Source of the DNA: a virus
DNA: 64,000 nucleotides
Reading direction: 5' to 3' (one strand)
Virus record (IMG/VR): IMGVR_UViG_3300030085_004590
Coordinates: 40,432 to 104,431 of that record
Shown here: positions 5,790 to 40,859 of the stretch, one piece after another
How positions within the stretch are numbered: the stretch's first letter is position 1
Layout of the letters: the number at the start of each line of letters is the position of its first letter
Notes under the pieces: model-generated
Database searches by the model: none
What the model saw: only the letters and a program-made list of their open reading frames with translations
What the model was told of the DNA's origin: nothing
Translations under genes and position numbers: made by a program

Positions 5790-5802
5790 CACAAAAGATA
5801 AT

Positions 5803-7426: not shown

Positions 7427-7435
7427 TAGTTTTTA

Positions 7436-7447: not shown

Positions 7448-7472
7448 TGTATTTAAAATTAAATTAAAAGTT

Positions 7473-7652: not shown

Positions 7653-7659
7653 ATAACTT

Positions 7660-10954: not shown

Positions 10955-10956
10955 TA

Positions 10957-10968
10957 TATATTAATATA
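10957..10968 (+). promoter_or_regulatory. Weak variant of the phage promoter motif
   Basis: TATATTAATATA differs from TATATTTATATA at one base, in the 24-base gap before the radical SAM gene at 10979. It may be fortuitous in such AT-rich DNA. Confidence 0.25.
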
Positions 10969-10978
10969 AAGATATTCA

Positions 10979-13158: not shown

Positions 13159-13163
13159 TTTAA

Positions 13164-14570: not shown

Positions 14571-14575
14571 AAGTT

Positions 14576-16737: not shown

Positions 16738-17876
16738 AATTTATATTTTTATTTGATGAAGAATATCCATCATGGTCTTTTCGAGGACCATTTACTGATT
16801 ATATTCAAAACAATTTTGAGTATAGTTTTATAGATGATATAGATAAATCAAAAAATAATATTTTAATCATTGAAGGAACTGAATGTTTTAAAGGACCACA
16901 CAGAGTTTTTAAAAAAGAACTCTATGATTTAATTAAAGAAAATAATTTAAAGGTAATTTTTGCATCAATTGCTGACCCATGTACTTGGTCTGATAAGATT
17001 AACTTTATGAATGATATAAATTCATACGGTCTGAAAGATAAAGTTTATTATGTGGATACTTGTGTAAATCATTCTGAAGATTACAATACTTTTTGTTATC
17101 ATCATTTTTTAGAAGAACCTGGTATTCATATGAAAAAGTGGGGAGATTTTAAATTTTTTGAAGAAAATGAATTAGGATATAAAAGTGAAGATATAACACT
17201 TGAAGAATTAGATATTTTTAGAAATAAAAAGTTTTTATCATTTAATAGAACAGTTGATAAAGATAATAGAATGAGTTTATTTCACACTTATCTTGAAAAT
17301 GATTTTTCAGATTCTTATTTTAGTTTTCTTAATTTTTGTGCATCAGATGGTTCAGTACCATTTTTTACAAAAAGTAAAAAATTATCAATCGATGAATATA
17401 AAAGTAAACTCCCAATTGAGTTAGATACTAAAAATAGTGGAGTTAATTTACAAAGTTTTAAAACAAGTAATACTTTTAAAAAAGATTTATTTTTAAATTC
17501 ATGTATTAACATTGTTACTGAAACATCGTTTCAATGTAATGGATTATTTTTATCAGAAAAAATAATAAAACCAATTGTATGTTACCAACCCTTCATAGTT
17601 GTAGGACCTTATAATTACTTAAAAGAATTACGAAGTTTGGGATACAAAACTTTCTCTGATTTTTGGGATGAAAGTTATGATGAAATAGAAAATGGTGAAG
17701 ATAGATATTTTGCAATTGAAAAATTAATTTTAGAATTAAATAGTAAAAGTATTAATGAATTAAATGAAATTTATCAAAAAACTAAAAATATATGTATATA
17801 TAATAGAGAGGTATTTAATAACTTCAAGGAAGATTCCATTCCTAACATAATAAAACAAATAGAAAATGAATGGTAA
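16722..17876 (+). CDS. Putative glycosyltransferase, paralogue family member 2
   Basis: This 384-residue protein shares its C-terminal block with the genes at 13164 and 20360: NIVTETSFQCNGLFLSEKI, IKPIVCYQPFIVVGPYN, LRSLGYKTFSDFWDESYD. The N-terminal part starts SILKFIFLFDEEYPSW and differs from the paralogues. A central FLSFNRTVDKDNRMSLFHTY resembles the 'NR...R' stretch near the middle of the other two. It overlaps both neighbours (16 and 11 bases), which places it inside the translationally coupled sugar run. A GT-B-like transferase is inferred from the weak GT10/exostosin-like pattern only. Confidence 0.5.
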   Translation: MGSILKFIFLFDEEYPSWSFRGPFTDYIQNNFEYSFIDDIDKSKNNILIIEGTECFKGPHRVFKKELYDLIKENNLKVIFASIADPCTWSDKINFMNDINSYGLKDKVYYVDTCVNHSEDYNTFCYHHFLEEPGIHMKKWGDFKFFEENELGYKSEDITLEELDIFRNKKFLSFNRTVDKDNRMSLFHTYLENDFSDSYFSFLNFCASDGSVPFFTKSKKLSIDEYKSKLPIELDTKNSGVNLQSFKTSNTFKKDLFLNSCINIVTETSFQCNGLFLSEKIIKPIVCYQPFIVVGPYNYLKELRSLGYKTFSDFWDESYDEIENGEDRYFAIEKLILELNSKSINELNEIYQKTKNICIYNREVFNNFKEDSIPNIIKQIENEW

Positions 17877-18831
17877 AAAGGTTTTAATCACAGGTGCTAA
17901 TGGATTAGTAGGAAATTACACCGTACAAAAATGTATCGATAGAGGTGCATTCGTAACTGCAGTTGATATTGTTGAACCAACAAATCAAATCGAAAAATAT
18001 AAGGATGAAAATTATCAATTCATCAAAGCAGATTTAAGAGAATTTAAAAGTTGTAAAAGAGTTGTCGAAGGACAAGATATAATACTTCATATTGCAGGTG
18101 TTAAAGGTTCACCTAAAAGAGCAATGGAACAACCAGCAGATTATTTTGTACCAATGTTACAATTTAATACCAATATGATGGAAGCAGCAAGATTAGAAGA
18201 TGTAGAGTGGTATGTATATACATCGACTGTTGGTGTTTATCAACCCGCTGAGGTATTTTATGAGGATGATGTATGGAAAACCTTCCCATCAGAAAAAGAT
18301 AAGTATGCTGGATGGGCAAAGAGATTGGGTGAATTACAAGCTGAAGTATATTCAGTATCATTCGATTGGAATAAAGCATCAGTTGTAAGACCAGCAAACA
18401 TTTATGGTAGACATGACAACTTCGGACCAGAATCAACAGTAATCGCTTCACTTATTAAAAGATTATTTGGTGAAAAAGAACATCCACTAATTTGTTGGGG
18501 AGATGGAACACCAATCAGAGATTTTATTTATGCTGGTGATGTTGCAGATGGAATCATAAAAGCATACGAACAAAAATTAACACAACCAATCAATTTAGGT
18601 AGTGGTACTGGTGTTACTATTAAAGAACTTGCAGAAACTCTCGTAGAAATATACGAAGATATGTATGGAGTTAAAGTTGGTATCGAATGGGATACTACAA
18701 AACCAAATGGTGATGCAAAAAGATTAATGAGTACAGAAAGAGCAGAATCTTTCGGTATCAAACAACAAGTATCCTTAAAAGAAGGATTAAAAGAAACAAT
18801 AGATTATTATTTAAATGAATTTAAAAAATGA
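17866..18831 (+). CDS. NAD-dependent epimerase/dehydratase (extended SDR) 2
   Basis: This 321-residue protein has GANGLVG at residues 10-16, ILHIAGVKGSPKRAM after strand 4, and STVGVYQP at strand 5. KYAGWAKRLGE holds the likely catalytic Tyr and Lys, but with four rather than three residues between them, so the Tyr assignment is uncertain. RPANIYGRHDNFGPES and PIRDFIYAGDVADGI are typical of GDP-/dTDP-sugar epimerases and reductases. It overlaps the next SDR by 4 bases. The product may work in series with SDR 3 and with the thiamine enzyme; no exact reaction can be assigned. Confidence 0.85.
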   Translation: MNGKKVLITGANGLVGNYTVQKCIDRGAFVTAVDIVEPTNQIEKYKDENYQFIKADLREFKSCKRVVEGQDIILHIAGVKGSPKRAMEQPADYFVPMLQFNTNMMEAARLEDVEWYVYTSTVGVYQPAEVFYEDDVWKTFPSEKDKYAGWAKRLGELQAEVYSVSFDWNKASVVRPANIYGRHDNFGPESTVIASLIKRLFGEKEHPLICWGDGTPIRDFIYAGDVADGIIKAYEQKLTQPINLGSGTGVTIKELAETLVEIYEDMYGVKVGIEWDTTKPNGDAKRLMSTERAESFGIKQQVSLKEGLKETIDYYLNEFKK

Positions 18832-19820
18832 AAAAAACAGATAAAATTTTAGTTACCGGAGCAAGTGGATTTATAGGTTCACGATTAATCAAAATGTTAT
18901 ATGAATTAGGTTATGTAAACATTCGTGCAACATCATGGAGTAGAGATTTACGAAATGATTTTGAAGGCTGTGAAAACATAGAACACATAAAAGGAAACTT
19001 GCAAGATGCAGACTTTTGTGAGATAGTGTCGAAAGGATGTGATGTTATATTTCATGCAGCTGCTAATACATCGAACGCATTAGATACAAAATATAATCCG
19101 CTTCTCCATGTAACTCCCAATATAGAAATGAATGTAAATCTTATGGAACAATCATGGAAACATGGGGTTAAAAAGTTTATCTTTATATCATCAAATACAA
19201 CTTATCCAGATTTAAAAGATGTACCTTGTACCGAAGATGTAGAAGTACAAACACCAGATATCGTACCAGTTTACAAAGCAGTAGGTTGGATGAAAAGATA
19301 TTGTGAAACTCTTTGTGATTTCTTTTCAAATCAAATTCACAACCCAATGCAGTGTGTAATTATTAGACCTTCAAATGCATTTGGACCAAACGATAAGTAC
19401 GATTTTGAAAAATGTCATGTTACACCTGCAAATATTAGAAAAGTTGCAGATAACCTAAATCCAATACCTGTTTGGGGAGATGGTACTGAAGTAAGAGATG
19501 TAATTCATGTTGATGATATGGTGAGTGGATTTATAACAGTTGCTGAAAAGGTTGATACATATGATATTTACAATGTATCTTATGGTGAAGGATATACTGT
19601 TATGGAAGTACTTGATAAAATTAAAGAAATCGAAGGAAACACAAACCCAGTCGAATTCGTAAACAACAAGGCACCAATGATACCTGTCAGATTATTAGAT
19701 AATCAAAAATTAAAAGATTTAGGTTGGACACCAAAATACGATTTAGAAAGTGGATTAAGAGATGCACTATCTTGGTATAAGGAAAATAAAGACCAATTTA
19801 ATCCAAATTCAAAACCTTAA
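18828..19820 (+). CDS. NAD-dependent epimerase/dehydratase (extended SDR) 3
   Basis: This 330-residue protein has GASGFIG at residues 11-17, VIFHAAANTSNA at strand 4, FISSNTTYPD at strand 5 and VYKAVGWMKRYCE where the active-site Tyr and Lys are expected. RPSNAFGPNDKYDFEKCHV and EVRDVIHVDDMVSG are nucleotide-sugar SDR segments. It is similar to SDR 2 and overlaps it by 4 bases, which suggests an old duplication or a two-step pathway. The E1-beta-like gene begins 4 bases after its stop. Exact substrate unknown. Confidence 0.85.
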   Translation: MKKTDKILVTGASGFIGSRLIKMLYELGYVNIRATSWSRDLRNDFEGCENIEHIKGNLQDADFCEIVSKGCDVIFHAAANTSNALDTKYNPLLHVTPNIEMNVNLMEQSWKHGVKKFIFISSNTTYPDLKDVPCTEDVEVQTPDIVPVYKAVGWMKRYCETLCDFFSNQIHNPMQCVIIRPSNAFGPNDKYDFEKCHVTPANIRKVADNLNPIPVWGDGTEVRDVIHVDDMVSGFITVAEKVDTYDIYNVSYGEGYTVMEVLDKIKEIEGNTNPVEFVNNKAPMIPVRLLDNQKLKDLGWTPKYDLESGLRDALSWYKENKDQFNPNSKP

Positions 19821-19824
19821 TAAA

Positions 19825-20370
19825 ATGAGTGAACCAAAGTTTACACCATACTTAGATGCGTTAACAGAAGCAATGAAATTAAGTATGGAAGATGATAAAA
19901 CTATATTCATCGGACAACAAATTGTTTATTATGGAAATCCAATGAGTAAAACCATTGAGGGATTACCAAAAGAAAGAATGATAGAAACACCAGTAATGGA
20001 AGAAGTTCAAATGGGTATGAGTTTAGGTCTTGCAATGTCTGGTCACAATGTGGTAAGTTTTTATCCAAGATGGGATTTCTTAATTTGTGCAGCAAATCAA
20101 TTGGTAAATCATTTAGATAAAATAAACATCATGTCAGATGGTGATTGGAATCCAAATGTAATTATAAGAGTTGGTAAAGGAAGTGATGTTCCATTAGACC
20201 CTGGTCACCAACACAAGGCAGATTATACAGAAGAATTCAAAACAATATTAAAACATACAAATGTAGTTAAACTTGATTCCCATGAAAAGATTCTACCTGC
20301 ATACAAAAAAGCATTAAAAGGTGGTATTTGGGTGATGGTAGAATATCCTCAATTATATTATGAGAATTAA
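19825..20370 (+). CDS. Thiamine-diphosphate enzyme, PYR (E1 beta-like) subunit
   Basis: From the ATG at 19825 (MSEPKFTPYL) the product is 181 residues. An upstream ATG at 19762 would add 21 residues inside the preceding SDR gene and is less likely. The sequence matches the pyrimidine-binding domain of E1 beta/transketolase: ETPVMEEVQMGMSLGLA holds the catalytic Glu (about residue 59) that activates ThDP, followed by a strand and WDFLICAANQLVNHLDK. It ends before the C-terminal transketolase domain of normal E1 beta (~325 residues). With the protein at 16093 it would form a minimal split PP/PYR enzyme, perhaps a ketol-transfer or decarboxylation step on a sugar. Confidence 0.75.
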   Translation: MSEPKFTPYLDALTEAMKLSMEDDKTIFIGQQIVYYGNPMSKTIEGLPKERMIETPVMEEVQMGMSLGLAMSGHNVVSFYPRWDFLICAANQLVNHLDKINIMSDGDWNPNVIIRVGKGSDVPLDPGHQHKADYTEEFKTILKHTNVVKLDSHEKILPAYKKALKGGIWVMVEYPQLYYEN

Positions 20371-21820
20371 AAGAGTATTTGATGTAAAAGGACCAATGGG
20401 GTTTGTACCTAATGGTATTAATTGGAATTTTACAAACATTTTTTGGAAATATAACTTTTATGTTACTCATAAACTTATAGATGAGTTCAATGAAACATAT
20501 GGACAGATTGGAGTATATGATTGTAATTTAAATTTATCAGAAGATTCAACAAAAAATTATCATATTAGTAATTTACATTACGATTCTAAAACAAAACTTG
20601 TAAACGGTAATAGAACAGAAAATTATTTCTATACTATTCATCCCTTTGGAAATATAAATGTATCAAGTGGTTCTGAACCAACTTATCATCAAGGTAGACA
20701 TAGTTTCGATTTTATATCTAAAAAAGCAAAAGATTGTACAAATGCAAAAAACTTTTGGTTAGTTTATGATTATAGTAGTGAAGGTGATATAAGACCTCAC
20801 ATTTTTAAGGAATTACACAAGGCATGTAAACGAAATAAAATTAACCCATCTAAAGTAATTGTAATTACTGCATCTGAAAATACATTTGATATTTATAAAC
20901 AATATTTAAATAAACATCCACAAGAAAATTTATTTTATACGGCATTTTATCCTTGGTCATTATTAGGAAAAGCAAAAGATACTAATGCTATTTTAATTGA
21001 AAAGAAAAAAATTCATTTTAATAGTTTTAAAAATGAAAATTCATTAATGGAAGATAGTGAATTTGATTTATTAACTAATAGAGAATCACACGCATTATGT
21101 TTAAATAGAAGATTAGCTGCACATAGAGTTGTAATTATTAGTTGGTTACTAGAAACTGGTTTATTTGAAAAAACAAAAACATCATTTGATTTATCGATGA
21201 GACATAATCATGATGAAATTGGATTAAATTTGGCATCTACAAGACCAGAACAAGGTGGACCATATCTTTCAAGTCAAGATAAGATTAACCAAATTCTTTC
21301 AGGTTTTAGAAAAATGAAAAAATTAGGAAAAAGTGTAGTTGATACTGAAGATATAAAAGGAGTATGGGGTTTTGCATTTGAAGATGCAAAAAATTATAAA
21401 TCTACTTACTTTTCAATTGTAACCGAAACTCTATTTTATGAATTAGGTAATTATATTTCAGAAAAAACATGGAAACCAATACAACATTTACATCCTTTTG
21501 TATTCGTAGGTAGACCTGGAATGTTAAAGTATTTACATAGTTTAGGATTTAAAACCTTTTCAGATTTTTGGGATGAAAGTTATGATACGATTGAAGATAA
21601 TCCAACAAGGATGGATAAAATCTGTGAAGTTGTTTCTTTTCTTTTAAATAAATCTAAAGAAGAATGGGATGAACTTAATAAAAAATTAAAACCAATTCTT
21701 ATTCATAATAGAAACTTACTATTAACATTTCAAGAATATACTGTTGGGAATATTTATAAAAGTAAACTAGATGAATTAATTTCAAATGAACCTAATCAAA
21801 AAAATTATTACTTACTTTAA
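20360..21820 (+). CDS. Putative glycosyltransferase, paralogue family member 3
   Basis: This 486-residue protein overlaps the E1-beta-like gene by 11 bases and ends the glycan island. The shared C-terminal block is FSIVTETLFYELGNYISEKT, WKPIQHLHPFVFVGRPG, LHSLGFKTFSDFWDESYD. A central LCLNRRLAAHRVVIISWL corresponds to the 'NR...R' region of the other members. The N-terminal half (RIKRVFDVKGPMGFVPNG) is specific to this copy. As for its paralogues, a GT10/exostosin-like transferase is inferred from a short motif and needs structural confirmation. Confidence 0.5.
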   Translation: MRIKRVFDVKGPMGFVPNGINWNFTNIFWKYNFYVTHKLIDEFNETYGQIGVYDCNLNLSEDSTKNYHISNLHYDSKTKLVNGNRTENYFYTIHPFGNINVSSGSEPTYHQGRHSFDFISKKAKDCTNAKNFWLVYDYSSEGDIRPHIFKELHKACKRNKINPSKVIVITASENTFDIYKQYLNKHPQENLFYTAFYPWSLLGKAKDTNAILIEKKKIHFNSFKNENSLMEDSEFDLLTNRESHALCLNRRLAAHRVVIISWLLETGLFEKTKTSFDLSMRHNHDEIGLNLASTRPEQGGPYLSSQDKINQILSGFRKMKKLGKSVVDTEDIKGVWGFAFEDAKNYKSTYFSIVTETLFYELGNYISEKTWKPIQHLHPFVFVGRPGMLKYLHSLGFKTFSDFWDESYDTIEDNPTRMDKICEVVSFLLNKSKEEWDELNKKLKPILIHNRNLLLTFQEYTVGNIYKSKLDELISNEPNQKNYYLL

Positions 21821-21947: not shown

Positions 21948-24900
21948 ATGAACAAACTCTCACAATTTCTTGTAGAGCAAATGCTCCTAGAGGATGAAAG
22001 TCCTATTAAGAAGGTCGTAGTAGTATATGGTGGTAGGTTTCAACCTATGCACAAAGGACACTACGGTACATACCAACATCTTGTCAAAAAATTCGGTAGA
22101 AATAATGTTTTTATCAGTACTTCCAACAAAGTAGAAAGACCAAAATCACCTTTTAACTTCAAAGAGAAGGTGAAAATCATGACTACAATGTTCAATATAC
22201 CTAAATCAAAAATAGTACAGGTAAAAAACAATTATGCTCCAACAGAAATCCTCAAAAAATACGATAAAAACACAACCGCCTTCATAACCGTTGTTGGTGA
22301 AAAGGATGCAGGAAGATTGGGTGGAAAGTATTTCAAACCATGGAAAGGAAAAGCAGAGGTTGGTTATGAGGATGGTGGTTATGTTTATGCCGCACCATCA
22401 AGTGGTGGTGGTATAAGCGGAACTGAAACTCGTAATGGGTTATCAGTAGGGTCGGATGACCAGAAGAAGTCTTTCTTTAAATCTCGTGCATATGGAAAGT
22501 TCAATGCAACGATTTTTAAGATGATTACGGACAAACTTAATGAGGGAGTAATCGAGATTTCTAAAGAAAGGATTGAAGAATGGCTCATCAACGAAAGTTC
22601 GAAGATGAGTTCAGGTCAAGTGGATGATGGGCCAAACTTCTTTTTCCCTAACTATGATGTATATTCTCGTATCAATGTAAAAAGAGCAGCAAAGATTGGA
22701 TTTGAGGTAGTAAATATGATTACTTCTAAAGAAATCGAGGATTACTATGACCATCCAAGTTATCCTGATGGGCCAGTAAAGGCAGTTACTTATTTCCCTG
22801 CTGGTGTTTTGGGTACAACAACCGCAACAAACCAAATTGATATTTATTCATCAAAAGCGTATTCCGATTGGTACAAACATTCAACTCGTAAAGCATCAAT
22901 GGTTGGTTATGAGTTAGTTAAATCACTTGCAAATAAAGAAGATTTAAAACAAGATAAAGAACAATCAGTAGAAGATGCAAAAGGAGATAAGGTTTCTCAG
23001 AAAGAATACGAAGCATCTTTAAATGAAGCAATTACATTACCAGTTGAAGTTGGTGATACAATTCTAACTGGTAGATTTAAAAACAAAAAAACAGTTGTTA
23101 AAACTATTGGTAAAGATGAACATGGAATGCCAACTATTAATGGTAGAAAAGTTGTAAACTTTAGATTAGTGAAAGAAGGATTCCAAGCAATTTTTGAAGA
23201 TGATGCAGATAAATATACTCATGTAGGTGGTGGTAACTACAAACCAAAAGGAAAAGAAGATGATGAAGATGCACCTACTTTCAATAAAGATGGAGATAGA
23301 TTTGTTCAAGTAGATAAAGGTGGTGATGATAAACCACAAGATGCTAAATCAAAAATTAGTGGTAAAGATATGTTCAAACATTCACCAGATATTAAAAAAG
23401 AAAAAGAACCCAAAAAACAAGGATTCTTTTCTAAATTATTTGGTCTACCAAGTTCACCAGAAGAAAAGAAAAAAGTACTTACACTTAAAAGTATAGAAAA
23501 TGTAGATGATAAAGAGTTTGCAAAACACATTAAGAAAAAAGTATTACCAAACCTACCAGATAAAAGTAAAGAAGAACTTAAACCTATTTTACAAAAGTAT
23601 GTTGAACTAAAAAAACAACTTAAGAAAACAGATGATGATGATGAACAATCAGAAATAATGTATAAACAAGATAAGATTCGTGATTATGTTTATGATTATA
23701 CAAAAGAAAAAATGAATGAGATTGCTGGTACGGCAGTTGATTGTGAAAAGTGTAATCACTCTTGGGATATAGAGGCAAATGATAATGAAAAATATTTATG
23801 TCATAATTGTGGATGGGATTCACAAAAACAAGAGTATGATTATGATGCATTTGATTCATGGCAGGAAAAAATGGGATTGAATGAAAGAAGTAAAGGTAAA
23901 TTAAGACCTGCTGATTTACTAAGAAGAAAAGCAGCAATGGCTGGTAAACGAGCTGCAATTGCAAGAAGAAGAAAAAGAACTATGATGAGGAGAAAACCTC
24001 TTGCTAAACTAAAAAAGATTGCATACAAAAAAGCATACCTACAAGTTTATGATGAGTTTATGAAGGATTTATTTCCTGGTATGAAGAAAAAGGATTTATC
24101 AATCCAACAAGCAAAGATAGTTCATAAGAATGTATTAAGAAAAAAGAAAAGAGTTCTTAAAAGAGCAAGATTTAAATTCTTACCTGCTTTAAGAGCAAAA
24201 GAGGCAGAAAAATTCGGTGATAAATCAGAAACAAACGAATTAATGATTGGATATGCAGGACCTGAAGATATGAAAAGGTTTGCAAAGAGAAATAAAGAAT
24301 ATAGAAAAGATGCTGAATCAAGTAAGGAGTATCAATACGAACCAATTAAAGAACAATCAGATAAAAAAACACAATGTATCAATAACTTTGTAGAATATGC
24401 TTGTAAAAGATTAAAACTTGATGGTAATCCAAAGATATCTTTGATGAGTGGTACAGAATATGCAGATACTCATAAAAGTTTAGGTGGTTTCAATCCACAA
24501 ACAAAAGAAATCTATGTTGCAACTGAAAATAGATTAACTGCTGATATTTGTAGAACGATTGCACATGAATTAGTTCATAGAAAACAAGATGAGATGGGAT
24601 TATTAAAAGACCCAATCAAAGATGGAGCAGATGGTTCACCGATTGAAAATCAAGCACATGCAGTTGCAGGAATTATAATGAGAGAATATGGTAGAATTGA
24701 TGATACAATTTACCAAGAAGGAATTAACTCTTTTTATTACGATGATTTAGCAAAGTATGTTTACAAAAAAAGAGGAGAGATTAACAGATTATTCAAAAAC
24801 TTACCTGATGAGAAAAAGGCTGAGTATTTAGAAAAACTTTACATCAAATTATTCCAGGGCCCAACTTCAAGAATGGTACATAGAGATATCAAAGGTAAGG

Positions 24901-27359
24901 GTGGTGAATTATTAAAGATGTTGAGAAAGGATAGAAGATTAAAAGAACAATGTGAAAGATTACCAAACGAATCAGAACAAGATTACAGAAGGAGATGTTT
25001 TGGTTACAATCCTTTAACTCCACCACCTGCAGGATTACAAAGATTAGGTGAGAATAAAGCAACAAGAACAAAATTCAATTTAACAATACCTTCTGATATT
25101 AAAAAACTTCAAAAGGCATTTAAGAAAGATAAAAAACAACTTTATGTAGTTGGTGGAGCAGTTAGAGATGCACTTCTTGGTAAAAAACCAAAAGATTTTG
25201 ATTTAACAACAGATGCAACACCAGAAGAAATGATTAAGATTGCGAAACAAGGTAAATTTAAACATTCTACAACAAATGTAAATGCAAATCTTGATTTAGG
25301 AAGTATAATCATCAATGGACACGAAGTAACTACATTCAGACAAGATGTTGGTAAAGGTAGGAGACCAGATAAAGTAGTTTATTGTGATATTTCAACAGAT
25401 TCTAAGAGAAGAGATTTAACTTGTAACTCTTTATACTACGATATTGATAAAAAAGAGATTATTGATTTCCATGGTGGTGTAGAAGATTTGAAAAAAGGAG
25501 TTATTAGAACAGTTGGTAAAGCAAAAGAAAGATTTGATGAGGACCCATTAAGAAAATTAAGAGCAGTAAGGTTCGAAACTCGATTAGGTGCTAAATTAGA
25601 TAAAGAAACTTTAGATGCACTTAAAAAAGATAACAAAATAACACAACTTTCATATCAAAGAATAAGTGATGAGTTTATAAGTGCAATAAAACAATCAAAA
25701 AACACTAAAGTTTACTTAGATAGATGTGATGAAGTTGGGTTTACACCACAAATTCTACCAGGTCTTAAAGTAAGTAAACCATATCCACACGATAATAACC
25801 CAATTACTTTAATGGCATTTATTCTAAGAGATAATGACCCTGCAAAAGTAGGTAAAATATTAAATAAAATCAATTATAGTAATGAAATTAAAGATGCAAT
25901 AGTGTTTTTAATATCATTAAAAGGATTTAAACCTGAATTGATTGTACCATTTAAGAAACTACATGATAAAATAAAGTTATCAGATAGTGATATTGTAGAT
26001 TTTGGTAAAAGAATTGGTAAAAAACTTGATAAATTTGTTAAATTCAAGTTATCTGTAAAAGGAAAAGATGTACCAAAGGATATACCCGATGGGCCAGAGA
26101 AAGGTTTGTGGATAAAGAATAGAGAAAAAGAACTATTCATGAAAGAAGGTATCCTTACAGAAGGTGGTGCGTATGGACATATGTCTCACCCATTCGATAC
26201 TGATATCAATTTAACCTTTGGACAACTAAAAGATATCGTAAATCGTGCACTCGAAGGTACACTTGAATTCACAAGAGAGAAAACTGATGGTCAAGCTCTT
26301 GCAATTTCATGGAGAGATGGAAGATTAGTAGCAGCAAGAAACAAAGGACACCTAAAAAACAAAGGTGAGAACGCTTTAGATATCAAAGGAGTATCAGATA
26401 AGTTCCAAGGTAGAGGTGGATTATCAGATGCATACAATTATGCGATGAAAGACCTTTCAAATGCAATCAAAGCACTTACAGATAAACAAAGAGATAAGAT
26501 TTTTAAACAAGGTGCGTGTTTTATGAACCTTGAAGTGATATATCCAACATCAGTTAATGTCATTCCTTACGGCCAGGCGTTACTTGTGTTCCATGGAACG
26601 ATGGAATATGATATGGAAGGTAAGGCAATTGGTGAAAATGGTGAAGCAGCAAGAATATTAGCTGGTATGATTAAACAAGTTAACAAAGATGTACAAGATA
26701 ACTACACTATTCAAGGGCCACCAATTGTAAAGTTACCTAAATCACAAGATTTATCAAAGAAAAGAGCAAAATATTCATCTCAAATCTCTAAATTACAAAA
26801 AGAATTCAAATTAAAGGATACAGATGGTGTTGCAAACTATCATCAAGCATGGTGGGAACAATGGGTTGATAAAAACTCACCAACAACACTCGATAATAAA
26901 ACCAAAATGGGGTTAGTTAAGAGATGGGCTTTCATGGATAAGAAATTTAGATTGGATAATAAGAATATTTCTGATTCTAAAACACTTGAATGGGCTAAGA
27001 AAACAGATAAAGATAATCATAAGAAGATATCAAAAGATAATCTAATGAAGTTTGAGAAAATCTTCTTAGGATTAGGTGCAGAAGTATTAGAATTTACTTC
27101 ATCTGCACTTACAGTTAATCCTGATAAGGCAGTTCGTGATATAAAGAAACGAATTGATAAAACAATCAAAGATGTTAAGAAATCAGGTGACCCAAAAAAG
27201 ATAGAAAAACTAAAATTAGAACTTGGTAGGTTAAATTCTATTGGTGGTTCTAAGAAAATTGTACCAAATGAAGGTATAGTATTTTTATATAAAGGAAATA
27301 CTTTTAAACTTACAGGTACATTTGCATCTGTAAACCAAATCCTTGGTATTTTCTTCTAA
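21948..27359 (+). CDS. 1803-aa multi-enzyme protein, probable head polyprotein
   Basis: The product begins with a capsid-targeting-like peptide (MNKLSQFLVE). Seen in order: a nucleotidyltransferase with HKGH (35-38) and ISGTETR (156-162), of NMNAT/cytidylyltransferase type; an unassigned region (about 217-360); an SH3/KOW-like segment after residue 361; a zinc ribbon CxxC-x15-CxxC (599, 602, 618, 621); a very basic region (about 647-802); a metallopeptidase HELVH (873-877) with Glu900 as possible third ligand; a CCA-adding/poly(A)-polymerase-like domain with GGAVRD (1069-1074) and DFD (1083-1085); and a ligase-like covalent nucleotidyltransferase with KTDG (1445-1448), LEVIYP (Glu1529), EGIVF (1775) and FKLTG (Lys1787). 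L/I-x-E sites lie between the modules (199, 216, 360, 646, 802, 1035, 1405). Cleavage by gp21 and packaging are inferred. Confidence 0.85.
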   Translation: MNKLSQFLVEQMLLEDESPIKKVVVVYGGRFQPMHKGHYGTYQHLVKKFGRNNVFISTSNKVERPKSPFNFKEKVKIMTTMFNIPKSKIVQVKNNYAPTEILKKYDKNTTAFITVVGEKDAGRLGGKYFKPWKGKAEVGYEDGGYVYAAPSSGGGISGTETRNGLSVGSDDQKKSFFKSRAYGKFNATIFKMITDKLNEGVIEISKERIEEWLINESSKMSSGQVDDGPNFFFPNYDVYSRINVKRAAKIGFEVVNMITSKEIEDYYDHPSYPDGPVKAVTYFPAGVLGTTTATNQIDIYSSKAYSDWYKHSTRKASMVGYELVKSLANKEDLKQDKEQSVEDAKGDKVSQKEYEASLNEAITLPVEVGDTILTGRFKNKKTVVKTIGKDEHGMPTINGRKVVNFRLVKEGFQAIFEDDADKYTHVGGGNYKPKGKEDDEDAPTFNKDGDRFVQVDKGGDDKPQDAKSKISGKDMFKHSPDIKKEKEPKKQGFFSKLFGLPSSPEEKKKVLTLKSIENVDDKEFAKHIKKKVLPNLPDKSKEELKPILQKYVELKKQLKKTDDDDEQSEIMYKQDKIRDYVYDYTKEKMNEIAGTAVDCEKCNHSWDIEANDNEKYLCHNCGWDSQKQEYDYDAFDSWQEKMGLNERSKGKLRPADLLRRKAAMAGKRAAIARRRKRTMMRRKPLAKLKKIAYKKAYLQVYDEFMKDLFPGMKKKDLSIQQAKIVHKNVLRKKKRVLKRARFKFLPALRAKEAEKFGDKSETNELMIGYAGPEDMKRFAKRNKEYRKDAESSKEYQYEPIKEQSDKKTQCINNFVEYACKRLKLDGNPKISLMSGTEYADTHKSLGGFNPQTKEIYVATENRLTADICRTIAHELVHRKQDEMGLLKDPIKDGADGSPIENQAHAVAGIIMREYGRIDDTIYQEGINSFYYDDLAKYVYKKRGEINRLFKNLPDEKKAEYLEKLYIKLFQGPTSRMVHRDIKGKGGELLKMLRKDRRLKEQCERLPNESEQDYRRRCFGYNPLTPPPAGLQRLGENKATRTKFNLTIPSDIKKLQKAFKKDKKQLYVVGGAVRDALLGKKPKDFDLTTDATPEEMIKIAKQGKFKHSTTNVNANLDLGSIIINGHEVTTFRQDVGKGRRPDKVVYCDISTDSKRRDLTCNSLYYDIDKKEIIDFHGGVEDLKKGVIRTVGKAKERFDEDPLRKLRAVRFETRLGAKLDKETLDALKKDNKITQLSYQRISDEFISAIKQSKNTKVYLDRCDEVGFTPQILPGLKVSKPYPHDNNPITLMAFILRDNDPAKVGKILNKINYSNEIKDAIVFLISLKGFKPELIVPFKKLHDKIKLSDSDIVDFGKRIGKKLDKFVKFKLSVKGKDVPKDIPDGPEKGLWIKNREKELFMKEGILTEGGAYGHMSHPFDTDINLTFGQLKDIVNRALEGTLEFTREKTDGQALAISWRDGRLVAARNKGHLKNKGENALDIKGVSDKFQGRGGLSDAYNYAMKDLSNAIKALTDKQRDKIFKQGACFMNLEVIYPTSVNVIPYGQALLVFHGTMEYDMEGKAIGENGEAARILAGMIKQVNKDVQDNYTIQGPPIVKLPKSQDLSKKRAKYSSQISKLQKEFKLKDTDGVANYHQAWWEQWVDKNSPTTLDNKTKMGLVKRWAFMDKKFRLDNKNISDSKTLEWAKKTDKDNHKKISKDNLMKFEKIFLGLGAEVLEFTSSALTVNPDKAVRDIKKRIDKTIKDVKKSGDPKKIEKLKLELGRLNSIGGSKKIVPNEGIVFLYKGNTFKLTGTFASVNQILGIFF

Positions 27360-28752: not shown

Positions 28753-30345
28753 ATGGCAAAAACATCTTTAAAAGATATAATCAAGATTGAGTATCAGAAA
28801 TGTGCCTCAGACCCAATACACTTCATGAAGAAGTATTGTATGATTCAACATCCTGTCCGAGGTAAGATACCATTTCACTTATTTCCTTTTCAAGAAAGAA
28901 CTTTAGATGAATTTACCAAACATAGATACAACATTATTCTAAAATCAAGACAGACAGGTATCTCAACCTTAACTGCAGGATTTGCATTATGGAAAATGTT
29001 GTTTAATCAAGATTTTAATGTATTAGTTATTGCGACTAAACAAGAAGTTGCTAAGAACCTTGTAACGAAGGTTCGTGTAATGAACCAATACTTACCAAGT
29101 TGGTTAAAACAAACAACAGTAGAAGATAACAAACTATCTCTACGATACTCCAATGGTTCACAAATCAAAGCAACATCAGCAGCTGGTGATGCTGGTCGTT
29201 CTGAAGCATTATCCTTATTAGTATTTGATGAGGCAGCTTTCATTGATAAGATTGAAGATATATGGATATCAGCACAATCTACCCTTTCAACAGGTGGTAA
29301 CGCAATTATCCTTTCAACACCCAATGGTGTCGGAAATTTCTTTCACAAAACTTGGGTAGGTGCAGAAGAAGAAGAAAATGGGTTCAATACAATCAGATTA
29401 CATTGGACAGTTCATCCTGAAAGAAATCAAGATTGGAGAGATGAACAAGAAAAGTTATTGGGAGTAAAAGGTGCAGCACAAGAATGTGATTGTGATTTCG
29501 TTTCTTCTGGTGATACAGTTATTGACCCACAACTTTTACAATTTTACAAAGAATCTTATATTCAAGAACCAATTGAAAAGACAGGATTTGATGGAAACCT
29601 TTGGAAATGGGAATATCCAAATTACAACAAAGGTTACATGGTTGTTGCCGATGTTGCGAGAGGAGATTCAACCGATTATTCGGCATGTCATGTAATTGAT
29701 ATTGAACAAGCAACTCAAGTTGCAGAATATAAAGGTAAATTAGATACAAAAGATTTTGGAAACTTTCTTGTATCACTTGCAACTGATTACAATCAAGCAT
29801 TACTTGTTATTGAGAATGCAAATATTGGTTGGGCAGTAATACAACAAGTAATTGATAGAGGTTATCAAAATCTATTCTACATGAGTAAGGATTTAAAATA
29901 TGTAGATGTTGAACATCAACTATCAAATAGATATAGAGCCGAGGAACGAGGAATGGTTGCAGGATTTTCTACAACTTCTAAAACACGACCTTTGATTATA
30001 TCAAAGTTAGATGATTATTTTAGAGATAAATCAGTAACAGTTCGTTCAGCAAGATTAATCGATGAATTATTCACTTTTATATGGAAAGGAAATAGGGCAG
30101 AAGCAATGCAAGGATACAACGATGATTTAACAATGTCATTCGCAATTGGTCTTTGGGTTAGAGATACTGCACTTAGATTAAGACAAGAAGGAATTGATTT
30201 AACTAAACAAGCATTGGGTGGTATTGGAGCACATCAATTAGATATTGCAGGTATGGGATTTGGTGGTAATACTCAATTAGAAGATAATCCTTGGAAACAA
30301 AGAGTTGGTGATAGAGATGAGGATTTAACTTGGTTAATTAAATAA
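28753..30345 (+). CDS. 17: Terminase large subunit (gp17-like)
   Basis: This 530-residue motor and nuclease packages DNA into the prohead. The ATPase has Walker A SRQTGIST at residues 65-72 and Walker B LLVFDEAAF with Asp159/Glu160. The RNase H-like nuclease begins at VVADVARGDSTDY with the metal ligand Asp300, and a second acidic patch lies in the region IENANIGWAVIQQ. Length and motif order match T4 gp17-type TerL. It is adjacent to portal and head genes, as expected for a late packaging module. The start ATG follows the previous stop with no gap and no clear Shine-Dalgarno sequence. Confidence 0.95.
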   Translation: MAKTSLKDIIKIEYQKCASDPIHFMKKYCMIQHPVRGKIPFHLFPFQERTLDEFTKHRYNIILKSRQTGISTLTAGFALWKMLFNQDFNVLVIATKQEVAKNLVTKVRVMNQYLPSWLKQTTVEDNKLSLRYSNGSQIKATSAAGDAGRSEALSLLVFDEAAFIDKIEDIWISAQSTLSTGGNAIILSTPNGVGNFFHKTWVGAEEEENGFNTIRLHWTVHPERNQDWRDEQEKLLGVKGAAQECDCDFVSSGDTVIDPQLLQFYKESYIQEPIEKTGFDGNLWKWEYPNYNKGYMVVADVARGDSTDYSACHVIDIEQATQVAEYKGKLDTKDFGNFLVSLATDYNQALLVIENANIGWAVIQQVIDRGYQNLFYMSKDLKYVDVEHQLSNRYRAEERGMVAGFSTTSKTRPLIISKLDDYFRDKSVTVRSARLIDELFTFIWKGNRAEAMQGYNDDLTMSFAIGLWVRDTALRLRQEGIDLTKQALGGIGAHQLDIAGMGFGGNTQLEDNPWKQRVGDRDEDLTWLIK

Positions 30346-30794: not shown

Positions 30795-32531
30795 ATGGCA
30801 GATACTTCATTTTTTGGTAGATTAACGAAACTATTCAGAGCTCAAGCGGTGGTTACCATCGATAAGCAGGGTAGAAGAAAAGTTGTAGATACCGATGAAA
30901 GACAACAAACGAATCTATCATCTCTAAGAGATAGATACACTAAGATTCAGAAATCTTTCTTCGAACAAGCAGGTGGTGCACAATCAATGGCATACCAACA
31001 AGTTCGTAGAGAGGTATTCAGAGATTATGATGCAATGGATAACGACCCAATATTAGCATCAGCACTTGATATATACGCAGATGAATCAACTCTTAAAAAC
31101 GAGTTTGGTAATCAACTTACAATTGTATCAGATAATGATAAAGTACAAGAAATACTAAGAAACTTATTTTACGATATTCTTAACATTGAGTTCAACTTAT
31201 GGCCATGGGTAAGAAATATGTGTAAGTATGGAGATTTCTTCTTAGGTTTAGAAATCGCCGAAGGTAAAGGTATCGTAAATGTTACTCCTCACTCTGTTTA
31301 CAATACAGAAAGATTAGAAAGAACAGACCCATCAAATCCAAATTCAGTAAAGTTCAAAATTACTGAGGACCCGAATGGTAAAGAAGAATATGAAAACTTT
31401 GAAATAGCTCACTTTAGATTATTAGCGGATACTAACTGGTTGCCTTATGGTAAATCCATGATTGAGAATGGTAGAAGATTGTGGAAACAGTTATCTCTAA
31501 TGGAAGATGCTATGTTAATCCATAGAATCATGAGAGCACCAGAAAAGAGAGTATTCAAAGTGGACATAGGAAATATCCCTCCAACAGAGGTTGATAACTA
31601 TATGCAAAGAATCATCAATAAAATGAAGAAAGTTCCTTTCGTTGATAGAAATACTGGTGATTACAACTTAAAGTACAATATGCAAAATCTAACTGAAGAT
31701 TTCTACTTACCAGTTAGAGGTGGTGATAGTGGTACAAACATTGAAAACCTTGCAGGTTTAGAATATGCAACTATCGAAGATATTGATTACTTAAAAAACA
31801 AATTATTTGCAGCTCTTAAAATTCCAAAAGCTTATTTAGGATATGAAGAAAACATTGCAGGTAAAGCAACTCTTGCTGCTGAAGATGTTAGATTTGCAAG
31901 AACAATCGAAAGAATTCAAAGAACAGTAATTTCAGAATTAACTAAAATTGCAATCGTACATTTATACTCACAAGGTATTCAAGATTCAGAAATGGTTAAC
32001 TTTGAATTACAATTAGTAAATCCATCATTTATTTACGAACAAGAAAAAGTAAACTTGTGGAGTGAAAAAATTAGATTGGCTCAAGATATTCAAGGATTGA
32101 ATATGTTATCTAAAGATTGGGTATATGATAATATTTTCAAATTATCAGATGCTGAATCAGATGAACAAAAAATTAAGATGATTGATGATTTAAAAGATAG
32201 ATTTAGATTCAGGTCTATTGAGGATGAAGGTAATGACCCAGCAATGGAAGATGAAGAACCAGATGATATCGAAGAATCTTTAGAAAAACTTAAACAAGAA
32301 ATCAAAGATAAAGGTGGTAGACCAAGAGAAGGTGGAACTTATGGAAAAGATAAACATCCATATGGTAGAGACCCACTTGGAAATAAAGAAAGAAAAGATG
32401 CAAAGAAGAATACAACTTCTGAAGAAAAAGCTTTAAAATATATTAGTGGAATTGCATCAAAAAGAAAGTATTTACACGAAATAAAAGATATGTTAGACGA
32501 GGATAATATCCTCAAAGATACAGAAAATTAA
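30795..32531 (+). CDS. 20: Portal protein (gp20-like)
   Basis: This 578-residue protein forms the dodecameric portal vertex through which DNA enters and leaves. Recognisable T4-like portal segments include YQQVRREVFRDYDAMDNDPI, ALDIYADESTLKN, WPWVRNMCKYGDFFLGLEI and PKAYLGYEENIAGKATLAAE. The acidic C terminus (EDEGNDPAMEDEEPDDIEE) is followed by a Gly/Lys-rich tail with GGRPREGGTYGKDKHPYG. It follows terL with one small gene between them; gp18 and gp19 are missing from that gap compared with T4. Confidence 0.93.
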   Translation: MADTSFFGRLTKLFRAQAVVTIDKQGRRKVVDTDERQQTNLSSLRDRYTKIQKSFFEQAGGAQSMAYQQVRREVFRDYDAMDNDPILASALDIYADESTLKNEFGNQLTIVSDNDKVQEILRNLFYDILNIEFNLWPWVRNMCKYGDFFLGLEIAEGKGIVNVTPHSVYNTERLERTDPSNPNSVKFKITEDPNGKEEYENFEIAHFRLLADTNWLPYGKSMIENGRRLWKQLSLMEDAMLIHRIMRAPEKRVFKVDIGNIPPTEVDNYMQRIINKMKKVPFVDRNTGDYNLKYNMQNLTEDFYLPVRGGDSGTNIENLAGLEYATIEDIDYLKNKLFAALKIPKAYLGYEENIAGKATLAAEDVRFARTIERIQRTVISELTKIAIVHLYSQGIQDSEMVNFELQLVNPSFIYEQEKVNLWSEKIRLAQDIQGLNMLSKDWVYDNIFKLSDAESDEQKIKMIDDLKDRFRFRSIEDEGNDPAMEDEEPDDIEESLEKLKQEIKDKGGRPREGGTYGKDKHPYGRDPLGNKERKDAKKNTTSEEKALKYISGIASKRKYLHEIKDMLDEDNILKDTEN

Positions 32532-34252: not shown

Positions 34253-34429
34253 ATGACTAAAAGAGAATTGTACGATATCATCAATGAGGAAATCGTTAAC
34301 TTTAAAAAAGGAAAAATTAACGAAGAACTCACCGAATCTGATAAAAATCTAATTAGAAAAATTATCAGACAAGAAGTATCTGCAATCTTTTTTGATTTGT
34401 TTAAGAAAAGAAAAACTTGGGGAGCATAA
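34253..34429 (+). CDS. Small head-region protein, 58 aa
   Basis: An ATG at 34253, 1 base after the previous stop, opens a 58-codon frame ending TAA at 34427-34429. The product starts MTKRELYDIINEEIVNF and contains two I-N-E sites (DIINEE, KINEEL). It is wholly helical and charged, ending KKRKTWGA. Its stop overlaps the ATG of the protease gene (TAATG), which argues strongly that it is real. It may be an internal head or core peptide; no family recognised. Confidence 0.7.
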   Translation: MTKRELYDIINEEIVNFKKGKINEELTESDKNLIRKIIRQEVSAIFFDLFKKRKTWGA

Positions 34430-35022
34430 TGAATAAATTACTAATAGAAACAAGATTATTCGAGGGTAAGGTAAACGAAGATGATAGTGGAAGAACTATC
34501 GTTAAGGGTATTCTACAAAGAGCTGGTGCAGAAAATCAGAATGGTAGAATATATCCTAAACCTATCCTTATGAGAGAAGCAAAGAAATACGAACAACTAA
34601 TTAAAGAAAGAAGAGCATTAGGTGAATTAGACCATCCTGATTCTTCTGTAATCAACCTAAAGAATGTATCTCACAATGTAAGAGAGATTCATTGGGATGG
34701 TGATGATTTAGTAGGAACAGTTGAGATTTTACCAACCCCAAGCGGTAACATCTTAAAAGAACTTTTACAAGCAGGTATTCTATTAGGTATTTCATCAAGA
34801 GGTATGGGTTCAGTAGAACCTTTGACTGGTGGTAAAGTTCAAGTAGGTGAAGATTTTGAATTAATCGGTTGGGATTTCGTATCTAACCCATCTACTCATG
34901 GAGCATTTATGGTTCCTATGAACGAATCTGTGAACAAACAAATTCAAGAACAAGCAGTAGTTTGTAATGAATGGTGTAAGGCACAAGATATGATGAGAGA
35001 AATTATAACAGAATTAAATTAA
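34429..35022 (+). CDS. 21: Prohead core protease (gp21-like)
   Basis: The ATG at 34429 (MNKLLIETRLF) overlaps the previous stop and gives 197 residues. A longer reading from a TTG at 34417 is less likely. The T4-type prohead protease fold shows GRIYPKPILMREAKKY near residue 35, GELDHPDSS with the catalytic His69, and LGISSRGMGSVEP with Ser122/Ser123 near the nucleophile position. VGWDFVSNP-like sequence (IGWDFVSNPSTHGAFM) closes the domain. The enzyme cuts scaffold, capsid and internal proteins, in T4 after (I/L)-x-E. Its own neighbours are full of such sites. Confidence 0.9.
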   Translation: MNKLLIETRLFEGKVNEDDSGRTIVKGILQRAGAENQNGRIYPKPILMREAKKYEQLIKERRALGELDHPDSSVINLKNVSHNVREIHWDGDDLVGTVEILPTPSGNILKELLQAGILLGISSRGMGSVEPLTGGKVQVGEDFELIGWDFVSNPSTHGAFMVPMNESVNKQIQEQAVVCNEWCKAQDMMREIITELN

Positions 35023-38359: not shown

Positions 38360-38715
38360 TTAAATTAAGAAATTTACTTAACGAAAGAGTACATTTCTAT
38401 GGAAATGCAAAAGTTCTACTCCAATCAAAAGCAAAAGATGCGGAACTACCATCTCAACAAGTTGAGTTCAAGTTTAATTATGCATATCCTGATTTCTTAG
38501 GTGAAGGACCAACTTTAACTTGTATCCCAAAAAGTTCAAAAGATTTAGATAAGATTGATACTTTAGGTAGTATATCAAAAGATGACATTTGTAAACAATT
38601 AGCAGAGTTCGCATCAAAGAAAACAAAACAAAAGTTTGTACCAATCGATTACAGACATCTTGACCAATACGCAATAGCATTAGATATCGAACCTATTTTA
38701 AAGAAGATAAGATAA
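38356..38715 (+). CDS. Small protein with capsid-targeting-like N terminus, 119 aa
   Basis: It starts MIKLRNLLNERVHFYGNAKV; L-N-E at residues 8-10 gives a predicted 10-residue leader of T4 capsid-targeting type. The remainder (about 109 residues) is mixed alpha/beta with DFLGEGPTLTCIPKSSKDLD. It overlaps both neighbours by 4 and 1 bases. Likely an internal head protein of unknown function. Confidence 0.65.
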   Translation: MIKLRNLLNERVHFYGNAKVLLQSKAKDAELPSQQVEFKFNYAYPDFLGEGPTLTCIPKSSKDLDKIDTLGSISKDDICKQLAEFASKKTKQKFVPIDYRHLDQYAIALDIEPILKKIR

Positions 38716-39059
38716 TGAAACTCCAAGATATCATAGAAGAAATATTCGAAGAAACCACAAATGAAGATTTGAGAAATTGGTTCAAATCTAAATGGGTGAA
38801 TATTGGTAAGAAAGATAAGAGTGGAAAACATCCACCATGTGGTACGAGTGGTAGTAAGAGAGGATACGCTAAATGTGTTCCTGCTAAAAAAGCAGCATCC
38901 ATGAGTAAGAAAGAAAAAGAATCTGCAACTCGTAGAAAAAGAGCAGCACAAAACAAAGCAAATAGAGGTGGAAAGAGTAGTAGAGGACAAGGAAAAAAAC
39001 CTATAAATGTATCTACTCATACTGGTGGAAGAAAGAGTGGGACTGGAAAAGGTTCATAA
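38715..39059 (+). CDS. Small basic DUF5872-like protein
   Basis: It starts MKLQDIIEEIFEETTNEDLR, a targeting-like acidic leader, and continues as WFKSKWVNIGKKDKSGKHPP, CGTSGSKRGYAKCVPAKKAA and a Lys/Arg/Gly-rich tail. The W-V-x-I-G-K-K-D-K-S-G-K-H-P-P-C-G...Y-x-K-C-V-P pattern is the small conserved phage domain I recall as DUF5872, found on its own or fused to head proteins. High basicity and a packaged-protein leader suggest DNA contact in the head. Its exact function is not known. Confidence 0.7.
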   Translation: MKLQDIIEEIFEETTNEDLRNWFKSKWVNIGKKDKSGKHPPCGTSGSKRGYAKCVPAKKAASMSKKEKESATRRKRAAQNKANRGGKSSRGQGKKPINVSTHTGGRKSGTGKGS

Positions 39060-39061
39060 TA

Positions 39062-39071
39062 TATATTTATA
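39062..39071 (+). promoter_or_regulatory. Putative phage promoter, TATATTTATA
   Basis: A copy of the recurring motif, 30 bases before the bS21 gene. AAGGAG follows at 39095-39100, only 1 base before the ATG. Confidence 0.5.
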
Positions 39072-39101
39072 TTAAATAAAGTTACACTTAAATAAAGGAG
39101 A

Positions 39102-39428
39102 ATGAGTAAACACCCAAAATTAGTTTCTGTTAAAGTCAAAAACAGAGATATCAACAAAGCACTTAAAATTTTTAAAAGAAGAGTAAATGATTCTGCACAC
39201 TTACAAGAGTTAAGAGAAAGAAAATATTTCGAAAAACCTTCATTAGCAAAAAGAAAAGCAAAACAACAAGCGAAAAGAGAACAAGAAAGAGAAACTATAC
39301 TTGCTAAAATAAATGATGGTAATACGAAACTTCAATTAAAAATGCGAAAGAAAAAAAGAAAAAAAGGAAAACCTAACAATCAGAAAAAAACTAATGAACA
39401 AAAAGGTTCATATAAATTAATTTCTTAA
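39102..39428 (+). CDS. rpsU: Phage-encoded ribosomal protein bS21 homologue
   Basis: Residues 6-55 match bacterial bS21: VSVKVKNRDINKALKIFKRR, then RERKYFEKPSLAKRKAKQQA, corresponding to the family pattern V-x-N-E...A-L-R-x-F-K-R...R-R-x-x-Y-E-K-P-x-x-x-R-K-R. bS21 sits near the 3' end of 16S rRNA in the 30S platform and influences initiation. The phage protein is 108 residues, longer than the ~65-70 of most bS21, because of a Lys-rich and probably disordered tail (KMRKKKRKKGKPNNQKKTNE). It has its own promoter-like box and lies just upstream of scaffold and capsid genes, which suggests it retunes host ribosomes for late translation. Confidence 0.88.
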   Translation: MSKHPKLVSVKVKNRDINKALKIFKRRVNDSAHLQELRERKYFEKPSLAKRKAKQQAKREQERETILAKINDGNTKLQLKMRKKKRKKGKPNNQKKTNEQKGSYKLIS

Positions 39429-39599
39429 AAATTAAGGTTTTCTGTATATATTCTATATTTATATACAATAATCCACTAATGTGGATTCATTTTTATGGTT
39501 TTTAATACCCACGAGTTCTTATGTGAGGTGACCGAACCAAAATTAATTCTTATTGAAAATCCCTTAATATTTTCACGAAACAAACGAAAGGTTTAAAAA
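39429..39599 (+). promoter_or_regulatory. Structured leader between bS21 and scaffold genes
   Basis: This 171-base gap contains TATATTTATATA (39454-39465), a perfect inverted repeat AATCCAC-TAAT-GTGGATT (39470-39487) followed by an interrupted T tract, and a second AT-rich repeat TGAAAAT/ATTTTCA (39554-39560/39569-39575). A weak AAAGG precedes the ATG of gp22. If transcription starts just after the TATA-like box, the first hairpin would be at the 5' end of the scaffold-capsid mRNA; alternatively it may be a terminator for the bS21 transcript. Confidence 0.5.
39470..39487 (+). terminator. Hairpin AATCCAC-TAAT-GTGGATT (terminator or 5' mRNA hairpin)
   Basis: A perfect 7-bp stem with a 4-base loop, followed by CATTTTTATGGTTTTT. 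The T tract is broken, so termination would be weak. It lies 16 bases downstream of the start of a promoter-like box. Confidence 0.45.
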
Positions 39600-40859
39600 A
39601 TGGCAAATTCAAATTTATTGAAAGAAGCTATTGCTGATGCTAAAGCTGTTAGAGAAACTGCTATTGCTAATGCTAAAATCGCTCTTGAAGAAGCTTTCAC
39701 TCCAAGACTACAATCTATCCTTTCTCAAAAACTTCAGCAAGAAATTGAAGGAGAAGATGAGAAACACGAAGAAGTAGAAGAAGGAACTTACAACGCTGAT
39801 GGTGAAGAAGAAATCACTGCAGAAGGTGAAGAGGAAGTTAATGAAGAGTACGATAAAGATGATGCTCCTGACGCAGGTGCTTCTGATATCGGTGATGGAG
39901 ACAATAAGCAACCTGCAGATGATGCTAATAGTTCATCAGATGTAGCTCAAGGAAACCCTGATACTGAAGTCGAAACTGCACCAGTTGGTTCTGAAGAGGA
40001 CGATACTGAAGTAGTTAAAGAAGGCGAAGAATCAGAGGAAGAAGATTCAGTAGAAGAAACTGTATCTGAAGATTCTCACGAAGAGGAAGAATCTAACGAA
40101 GGATATATGGAAGATTCACACGAAGAAGAAGATTCAGTAGATGAAGAACTTGATTTAGAATCAATCATTAAGGAACTTGAAGCAGAACTTTCTGAAGAAG
40201 AAGGTGCTGACCACGAAGAGGAACTTGATGCTGAGGAAAAAGAAGAAGTTGAAGATATCGCTGATGACGCTGTTGATTCTCATGAAGATGAGAAACACGA
40301 AGAAGAAGTGGAAGAAGAAATGTATTCTGAAGAAGATGACTCTGAAGAAGAAGATTTAGATGAAGAAATCGATTTAGAAGAAATCCTAAGAGAAATGGGA
40401 TATGGTTCTGAAGAGGAAGTTTCTGAAGGTGAAGATTCTGAAGAAGAAAAAGAAGAGGTTGAAGAAAACAACGAATTAGAAGAAGTAAAAGCTGAGTTAA
40501 ACGAAGCAATTTCTACTATTAAAGAGTTGAAGTCTACAATCAATGAAGTAAATCTATTAAACGCTAAATTACTTTACACTAACAAATTGTTCAGAGCTTA
40601 TGAACTAAACAACGACCAAAAACACAAAGTTGTTGAAACATTAGACAGAACTAAAAATGTTAGAGAAGTAAAATTAGTATTCTCAACATTAGCTGAGAGT
40701 TTCAAAATAGGTGGAACTTCAAAGAAACAAAAACAAGCTAAAATTAACGAATCATTCGCATCTAAACCAGTTGCATCGACTGCTCCTAAAAAAGAAGTAA
40801 TCGCTGAATCAACTAACACGATGGCTGATAGATTCAAAAAATTAGCAAACATTAATTAA
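39600..40859 (+). CDS. 22: Prohead scaffold/core protein (gp22-like)
   Basis: This 419-residue, extremely Glu/Asp-rich protein sits directly before the major capsid gene, as gp22 does in T4. The N terminus (SNLLKEAIADAKAVRETAIA, ALEEAFTPRLQSILSQKL) is the helical segment I associate with gp22-type scaffolds of marine T4-like phages. A long acidic central region (about residues 48-300) follows, then a helical, more basic C terminus with LNEAISTIKEL, INEVNLL and KINESFASK, candidate gp21 cuts. In T4 the scaffold is degraded by gp21 before packaging. Cytoplasmic assembly, late expression. Confidence 0.85.
   Translation: MANSNLLKEAIADAKAVRETAIANAKIALEEAFTPRLQSILSQKLQQEIEGEDEKHEEVEEGTYNADGEEEITAEGEEEVNEEYDKDDAPDAGASDIGDGDNKQPADDANSSSDVAQGNPDTEVETAPVGSEEDDTEVVKEGEESEEEDSVEETVSEDSHEEEESNEGYMEDSHEEEDSVDEELDLESIIKELEAELSEEEGADHEEELDAEEKEEVEDIADDAVDSHEDEKHEEEVEEEMYSEEDDSEEEDLDEEIDLEEILREMGYGSEEEVSEGEDSEEEKEEVEENNELEEVKAELNEAISTIKELKSTINEVNLLNAKLLYTNKLFRAYELNNDQKHKVVETLDRTKNVREVKLVFSTLAESFKIGGTSKKQKQAKINESFASKPVASTAPKKEVIAESTNTMADRFKKLANIN

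Follow-up and report, generated by a model that had tools for sequence, protein, structure and literature searches.

A phage bS21 with arginine at the Tyr54 position and a possible late switch towards Shine-Dalgarno-led translation

An uncultivated virus, represented by a record of 123,353 bases, carries a single gene for ribosomal protein bS21 beside its head genes, and we tentatively read the product as a late translational switch that would open the anti-Shine-Dalgarno (anti-SD) sequence for late phage genes. We put the probability of this reading at roughly 0.4. Several independent features of the clade to which the virus belongs point towards such an opening. Whether ribosomes of altered composition select particular mRNAs is debated, as is the reason why phages carry bS21 so often. 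The clade offers a natural two-class design, with early genes devoid of Shine-Dalgarno (SD) sites, late genes bearing them and a bS21 without the residue that hides the anti-SD; if the reading is true, exchange of bS21 would switch mRNA choice, which is one measurable outcome.

Results

The whole stretch of DNA analysed, here called the window, is 64,000 nucleotides long. Its features relevant to the argument are the following.

4587 to 21820, plus strand: sugar and envelope biosynthesis cassette, genes without SD site (PHROG matches, SD scoring)
28753 to 30345, plus strand: terminase large subunit (phrog_2)
30795 to 32531, plus strand: portal protein (phrog_213)
34417 to 35022, plus strand: prohead protease (PF03420, phrog_207)
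39062 to 39070, plus strand: late-promoter-like box TATATTTAT ahead of bS21, at 32-40 nt from its ATG (enrichment counts)
39097 to 39100, plus strand: GGAG 1 nt before the bS21 ATG, a conserved anomaly with the same spacing in G024 and G025
39102 to 39428, plus strand: phage bS21 (rpsU-like) gene, 108 aa (PF01165, TIGR00030 and PDB matches; conserved in L005, L294, L295 and L296)
39102 to 39293, plus strand: bS21 core, residues 1-64 (Pfam/NCBIfam match over residues 8-63)
39276 to 39278, plus strand: codon of Arg59, aligned with Tyr54 of Flavobacterium johnsoniae
39294 to 39425, plus strand: Lys-rich C-terminal tail of bS21, residues 65-108, clade motif ETIL.KI..G.T.L.L..KK.KK (kin sequences, dN/dS 0.19)
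39454 to 39462, plus strand: second TATATTTAT box, preceding the leader of the scaffold gene (enrichment counts)
39470 to 39576, plus strand: scaffold-gene leader, a structured RNA with two or three hairpins (family-wide covariation)
39600 to 40859, plus strand: acidic scaffold-slot gene, 419 aa, putative scaffold, between protease and major capsid protein (MCP) genes, with a homologue in the same slot of kin and of phage immuto
40888 to 42492, plus strand: MCP gp23 (PF07068, E 1e-77), AAGGAG upstream, SD dG -7.9

The protein encoded at 39102-39428, the sole bS21 of the record, exceeds the curated cut-offs of both family profiles (PF01165 Ribosomal_S21, 47.3 bits versus 27, over residues 8-63; TIGR00030, 43.1 bits versus 28.95) and matches bS21 chains of solved ribosomes in the PDB, with a best E of 1.4e-7. 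Comparison with the relative L005, at 43 nucleotide differences, gives a dN/dS of about 0.2 in core and tail alike, so that both the core and the Lys-rich tail must be regarded as coding and constrained. The tail motif ETIL.KI..G.T.L.L, followed by a Lys-rich stretch, is common to the kin G024, G025 and G041, which are longer records, and to G003. The sequence-only reading had credited this protein with the full bS21 core, a Lys-rich extension, a promoter-like box of its own and a place in the head operon just 5' of the scaffold and capsid genes, and all of this is confirmed by the matches, the kin and the enrichment counts given below. Searching phage records by tblastn with the full-length protein returned no match, and with only the core as query and a relaxed E-value, distant bS21 were the sole matches; no relative turned up when bacterial genomes were scanned at the protein level for the phage bS21. 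Inference of the host from bS21 similarity was dropped, as pairwise scores cannot place the phage protein among bacterial lineages.

Upstream of bS21 lie the terminase, portal and prohead protease genes, and downstream, on the same strand, the scaffold slot and gp23. The product of 39600-40859 has no database match; its position, and the presence of a homologue in the same slot in kin, suggest that it is the scaffold. A capsid-protein scan of viral contigs yielded 50 MCP loci with enough upstream sequence, in 29 of which bS21 is found 1.1-2.9 kb upstream of the capsid gene on the same strand; the slot is empty of bS21 in the other 21, one of which (G003) has the gene elsewhere. The position of bS21 beside the head genes is thus an old one. 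Immediately upstream of bS21 there is a small basic gene (38715-39059) with a weak DUF5872 match and a match to phrog_23735, and elsewhere a protein of 1803 aa (21948-27359) combines a tRNA-nucleotidyltransferase-like stretch (phrog_2244) with a separate cytidyltransferase-like one (phrog_395). No tRNA genes were found.

Two kinds of promoter-like sequence partition the genes of the clade. The window has 14 copies of the 9-mer TATATTTAT, 13 of them on the plus strand, versus 3.8 expected; in the clade this 9-mer precedes structural genes 32 times versus 0.5 expected, never in reversed orientation. Other, non-structural genes are preceded by TTTG-N19-21-TANNTTTG, the housekeeping promoter type of Bacteroidota, in 10 cases versus 0.1 expected, and structural genes never are. 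For the clade, and likewise for G003, the distance between TTTG and TANNTTTG shows a sharp maximum at exactly 20 nt (in the clade, 34 at 20 nt versus about 13 at other spacings), which SD-rich relatives do not show; neither T4-type TATAAATA nor sigma-70 promoters are enriched. On these grounds operons behind TATATTTAT are read as late and those behind the host-type promoter as early. The own record has one host-type promoter, near record position 1240 and outside the window; within the 64,000 nucleotides of the window there is no TTTG-N20-TANNTTTG. The clade as a whole, having such promoters before its putative early genes, resembles phages of Bacteroidota hosts. The premise of a Bacteroidota host, raised conditionally in the sequence-only reading, therefore gains support from the promoters of kin, which fall short of proving it.

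Against this inference of the host stands the Microcystis elabens phage Mel-JY01 (PP395634.1, loci L147-L156), in which TTG-N17-24-TANNTTTG, likewise the promoter type of Bacteroidota, occurs 19 times versus 0.8 expected. Its recorded host is a cyanobacterium, and either this host record deserves a check or the promoter motif is not host-specific.

Across the capsid family, in loci with and without bS21, a structured RNA lies between the TATATTTAT box and the scaffold gene. Its two helices show 96.9% paired cells in alignment A4 (L052 6708-6797, L024 6612-6704 and 25 further loci), with 67 double changes versus at most 12 when the partners are slid, and the RNA has no match in Rfam. The variant in the window is diverged and obtains no score with model R1; it was placed at 39470-39576 by alignment with kin.

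How are SD sites distributed between the two gene sets? Genes were called from the first ATG with a minimum of 80 aa, and each was scored by the most stable duplex that its positions -18 to -4 form with ACCUCCUU, a dG of -4 or below counting as a site; gene classes were assigned by homology, the clade comprised the own record, G023, G024, G025 and G041, to which G003 was added, and close relatives were pooled. Sites are found at 40% of genes of the own record versus 11% of its internal ATGs. The Flavobacterium phage immuto, which has no bS21, displays them at 2% of genes versus 20% at internal ATGs, and Molly, a Maribacter phage also without bS21, has almost none. Along the window, no sites precede the genes of the sugar cassette (2.5-27 kb), and most genes from 28 kb onward possess them. 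In the clade and G003 together, sites precede 76/146 structural genes versus 4/32 replication genes (p=2.8e-5), the genes for NrdA, NrdB, RecA/UvsX, DnaB and exonuclease having none; this split fades at stricter cut-offs, to p=0.015 at -6 and 0.14 at -7 kcal/mol. The controls HTVC008M, Melnitz, S-PM2 and RM378 lack such a division between structural and replication genes. When genes are divided by operon, sites are found at 128/316 behind TATATTTAT versus 14/125 behind the host-type promoter, the latter proportion being equal to background (p=5e-10), and this split by promoter class also holds for G003 taken by itself (p=0.0075).

Over all loci compared, the structural region is richer in SD sites where bS21 is present (median 0.69, n=27) than where it is absent (0.17, n=18; p=8e-7). 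The phylogenetic independence of this link is weak: bS21 presence changes only 5 times on the MCP tree, giving 4 independent pairs, about 2 for and 0 against, too few for significance. A family-wide rule equating Arg at position 54 with SD use and Tyr with its absence was rejected, since of two bS21-bearing loci that are SD-poor one has Tyr (L014) and the other Arg (L017), and L057, L068 and L073 (Tyr) are SD-rich.

The residue in question is known from F. johnsoniae, where bS21 stacks its Tyr54 on the tail of 16S rRNA (McNutt et al. 2023, PMC9976891). There bS21 controls access to the anti-SD: translation led by SD sites rises when either Tyr54 or the C-terminal region is lost, the Y54A substitution increasing expression of strong-SD reporters 1.7-3-fold; this stimulation required very strong SD sites (PMC9976891). 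Sites in the phage have ordinary strength and are weaker than those needed in F. johnsoniae. Tyr occupies position 54 in 80/80 Flavobacterium loci and in 28 of 30 loci sampled from class Bacteroidia (two Tyr read by eye), with 1 His and 1 Arg making up the remainder, that is, Tyr in 108/110 and Tyr or His in 109/110 over both samples. The window lacks the aromatic contact to the 16S rRNA 3' tail and has Arg59 instead; Arg is likewise found in L005, L009, L010 and G003, in loci L294, L295 and L296, and in G024, G025 and G041.

In the wider phylum, comparison of Bacteroidota L457-L486 with L456 and L487-L515 places Tyr at position 54 in Bacteroidia and Arg in most other best-scoring genomes sampled, and rpsU of Arg-type non-Bacteroidia Bacteroidota often has GAGGTGA-like sites. 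The Tyr/Arg boundary may mark the origin of SD blindness in Bacteroidota.

The start of the bS21 gene itself departs from the rest of the clade, where GGAG ends 6-8 nt upstream of the start in most of 101 genes. In the own record, G024 and G025 the bS21 GGAG stands 1 nt before the start, and G041 has AAGAGA. A GGAG at 1 nt from the ATG lies too near it to count as an ordinary SD site, and the extended, well-placed autoregulatory SD of Bacteroidia-type rpsU is absent from the window, G024 and G025. A ribosome that pairs with SD sites should gain nothing from this spacing and may be hindered by it.

Discussion

If the phage bS21 acts as a late switch, the course of events might be as follows. 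The protein, presumably functional and made along with the late head genes, would most likely replace or top up host bS21 on Bacteroidota 30S subunits. In the host protein a pocket accommodates the 3' tail of 16S rRNA, against which Tyr54 stacks; the Arg and basic tail of the phage protein would leave the anti-SD free on the ribosomes that carry it. Late structural mRNAs with normally spaced AAGGAG-type sites would then gain, and SD-less early phage and host mRNAs would lose. The sequence-only reading had noted AAGGAG sites in late mRNAs, and they are indeed common in late genes; it had also left undecided whether the phage protein frees or blocks the anti-SD, and the change from Tyr to Arg, with SD sites in structural and not in replication genes, fits freeing better than blocking. 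The mRNA of bS21 would itself be read by the SD-independent route of the host, because its GGAG lies too near the start. A switch gene needs to be readable before the switch, and the placement of the GGAG could also damp it afterwards. Taken to its full extent, the proposal is of a specialised ribosome of phage making, in which an Arg-type bS21 inserted late into SD-blind Bacteroidia ribosomes opens the anti-SD and turns on a gene set written with SD sites, the ill-placed GGAG keeping bS21 readable before and damped after; in this complete form we hold it possible, if somewhat unlikely.

Could the phage simply be supplying a component in demand? Host bS21 is readily exchanged and assembles late, and its replacement by the phage version might serve to maintain complete 30S subunits through the late burst with mRNA choice unchanged, the tail only strengthening binding. 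Such a role, which we consider rather unlikely, would be served by the late box and head-operon location, and by a core and a tail under equal constraint. HTVC008M and Melnitz, phages of SD-using hosts, carry bS21 and show no split in SD sites between structural and replication genes. Supply leaves unexplained, however, both the confinement of SD sites to late operons in the clade and the missing Tyr typical of Bacteroidia.

It is similarly doubtful that the pattern reflects nothing but the type of host. A host that is not SD-blind, for example a non-Bacteroidia member of Bacteroidota with an Arg-type bS21, would allow late genes to keep ancestral or expression-related SD sites, while early and acquired genes would be SD-less for other reasons and bS21 would be incidental. 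Arg at position 54 in 26 of the 30 best Pfam scorers of a phylum-wide Bacteroidota sample makes such hosts conceivable; bS21 and SD use are both clumped on the tree, and pairwise scores do not resolve the nearest bacterial bS21. Phages of SD-using hosts, however, have SD sites in both gene classes. An explanation of the SD-less genes as nothing but acquired genes was ruled out, as sites are equally missing from NrdA, NrdB, RecA/UvsX and DnaB, replication genes that immuto has as well. That the phage bS21 poisons host translation or binds RNA away from the ribosome is improbable given its entire ribosome-binding core and late production at the peak of phage translation, even though its tail is basic and E. 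coli ribosomes with the bS21 of HTVC008M were only about 5% active in vitro (PMC6375957), a result that speaks against the switch as well.

The reading of phage bS21 as a late switch extends ideas already published, since both its location beside head genes and the late-mRNA hypothesis are known (Chen 2022; Mizuno 2019). Chen 2022 (PMC9723584) described bS21 among the late genes of freshwater Bacteroidetes phages, with late expression, and proposed that it favours phage mRNAs; Mizuno 2019 (PMC6375957) found that bS21 of pelagiphage HTVC008M enters E. coli 70S ribosomes. The present gene shares with the former phages a location only a few genes away from those for terminase, portal, protease and MCP, and the same general hypothesis of ribosome substitution. 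It differs in strand, bS21 being opposite to the structural genes in those phages and on the same strand here, and in residue 54, which is aromatic in 61/61 of them and was read as still blocking the anti-SD, whereas here Arg is accompanied by late SD sites. The clade thus departs from those phages at the very residue that was used to argue for blocking. HTVC008M bS21 belongs to the same Pfam family but adjoins CobS and a heat-shock gene rather than a scaffold, in a genome with SD sites throughout. The host bS21 of F. johnsoniae (PMC9976891) has 64 aa with Tyr54, and its gene has an activating extended SD, as opposed to the phage GGAG at 1 nt. Mel-JY01 and the uncultured phage LR756508 share the gene order, with bS21 between protease and scaffold/MCP, although position 54 is Lys and Met, respectively, and the tails are short or unrelated. 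What appears to be new here, as judged from sequence, is the Arg at the position of Tyr54, the division of SD sites by gene and promoter class, and the 1-nt spacing of the GGAG.
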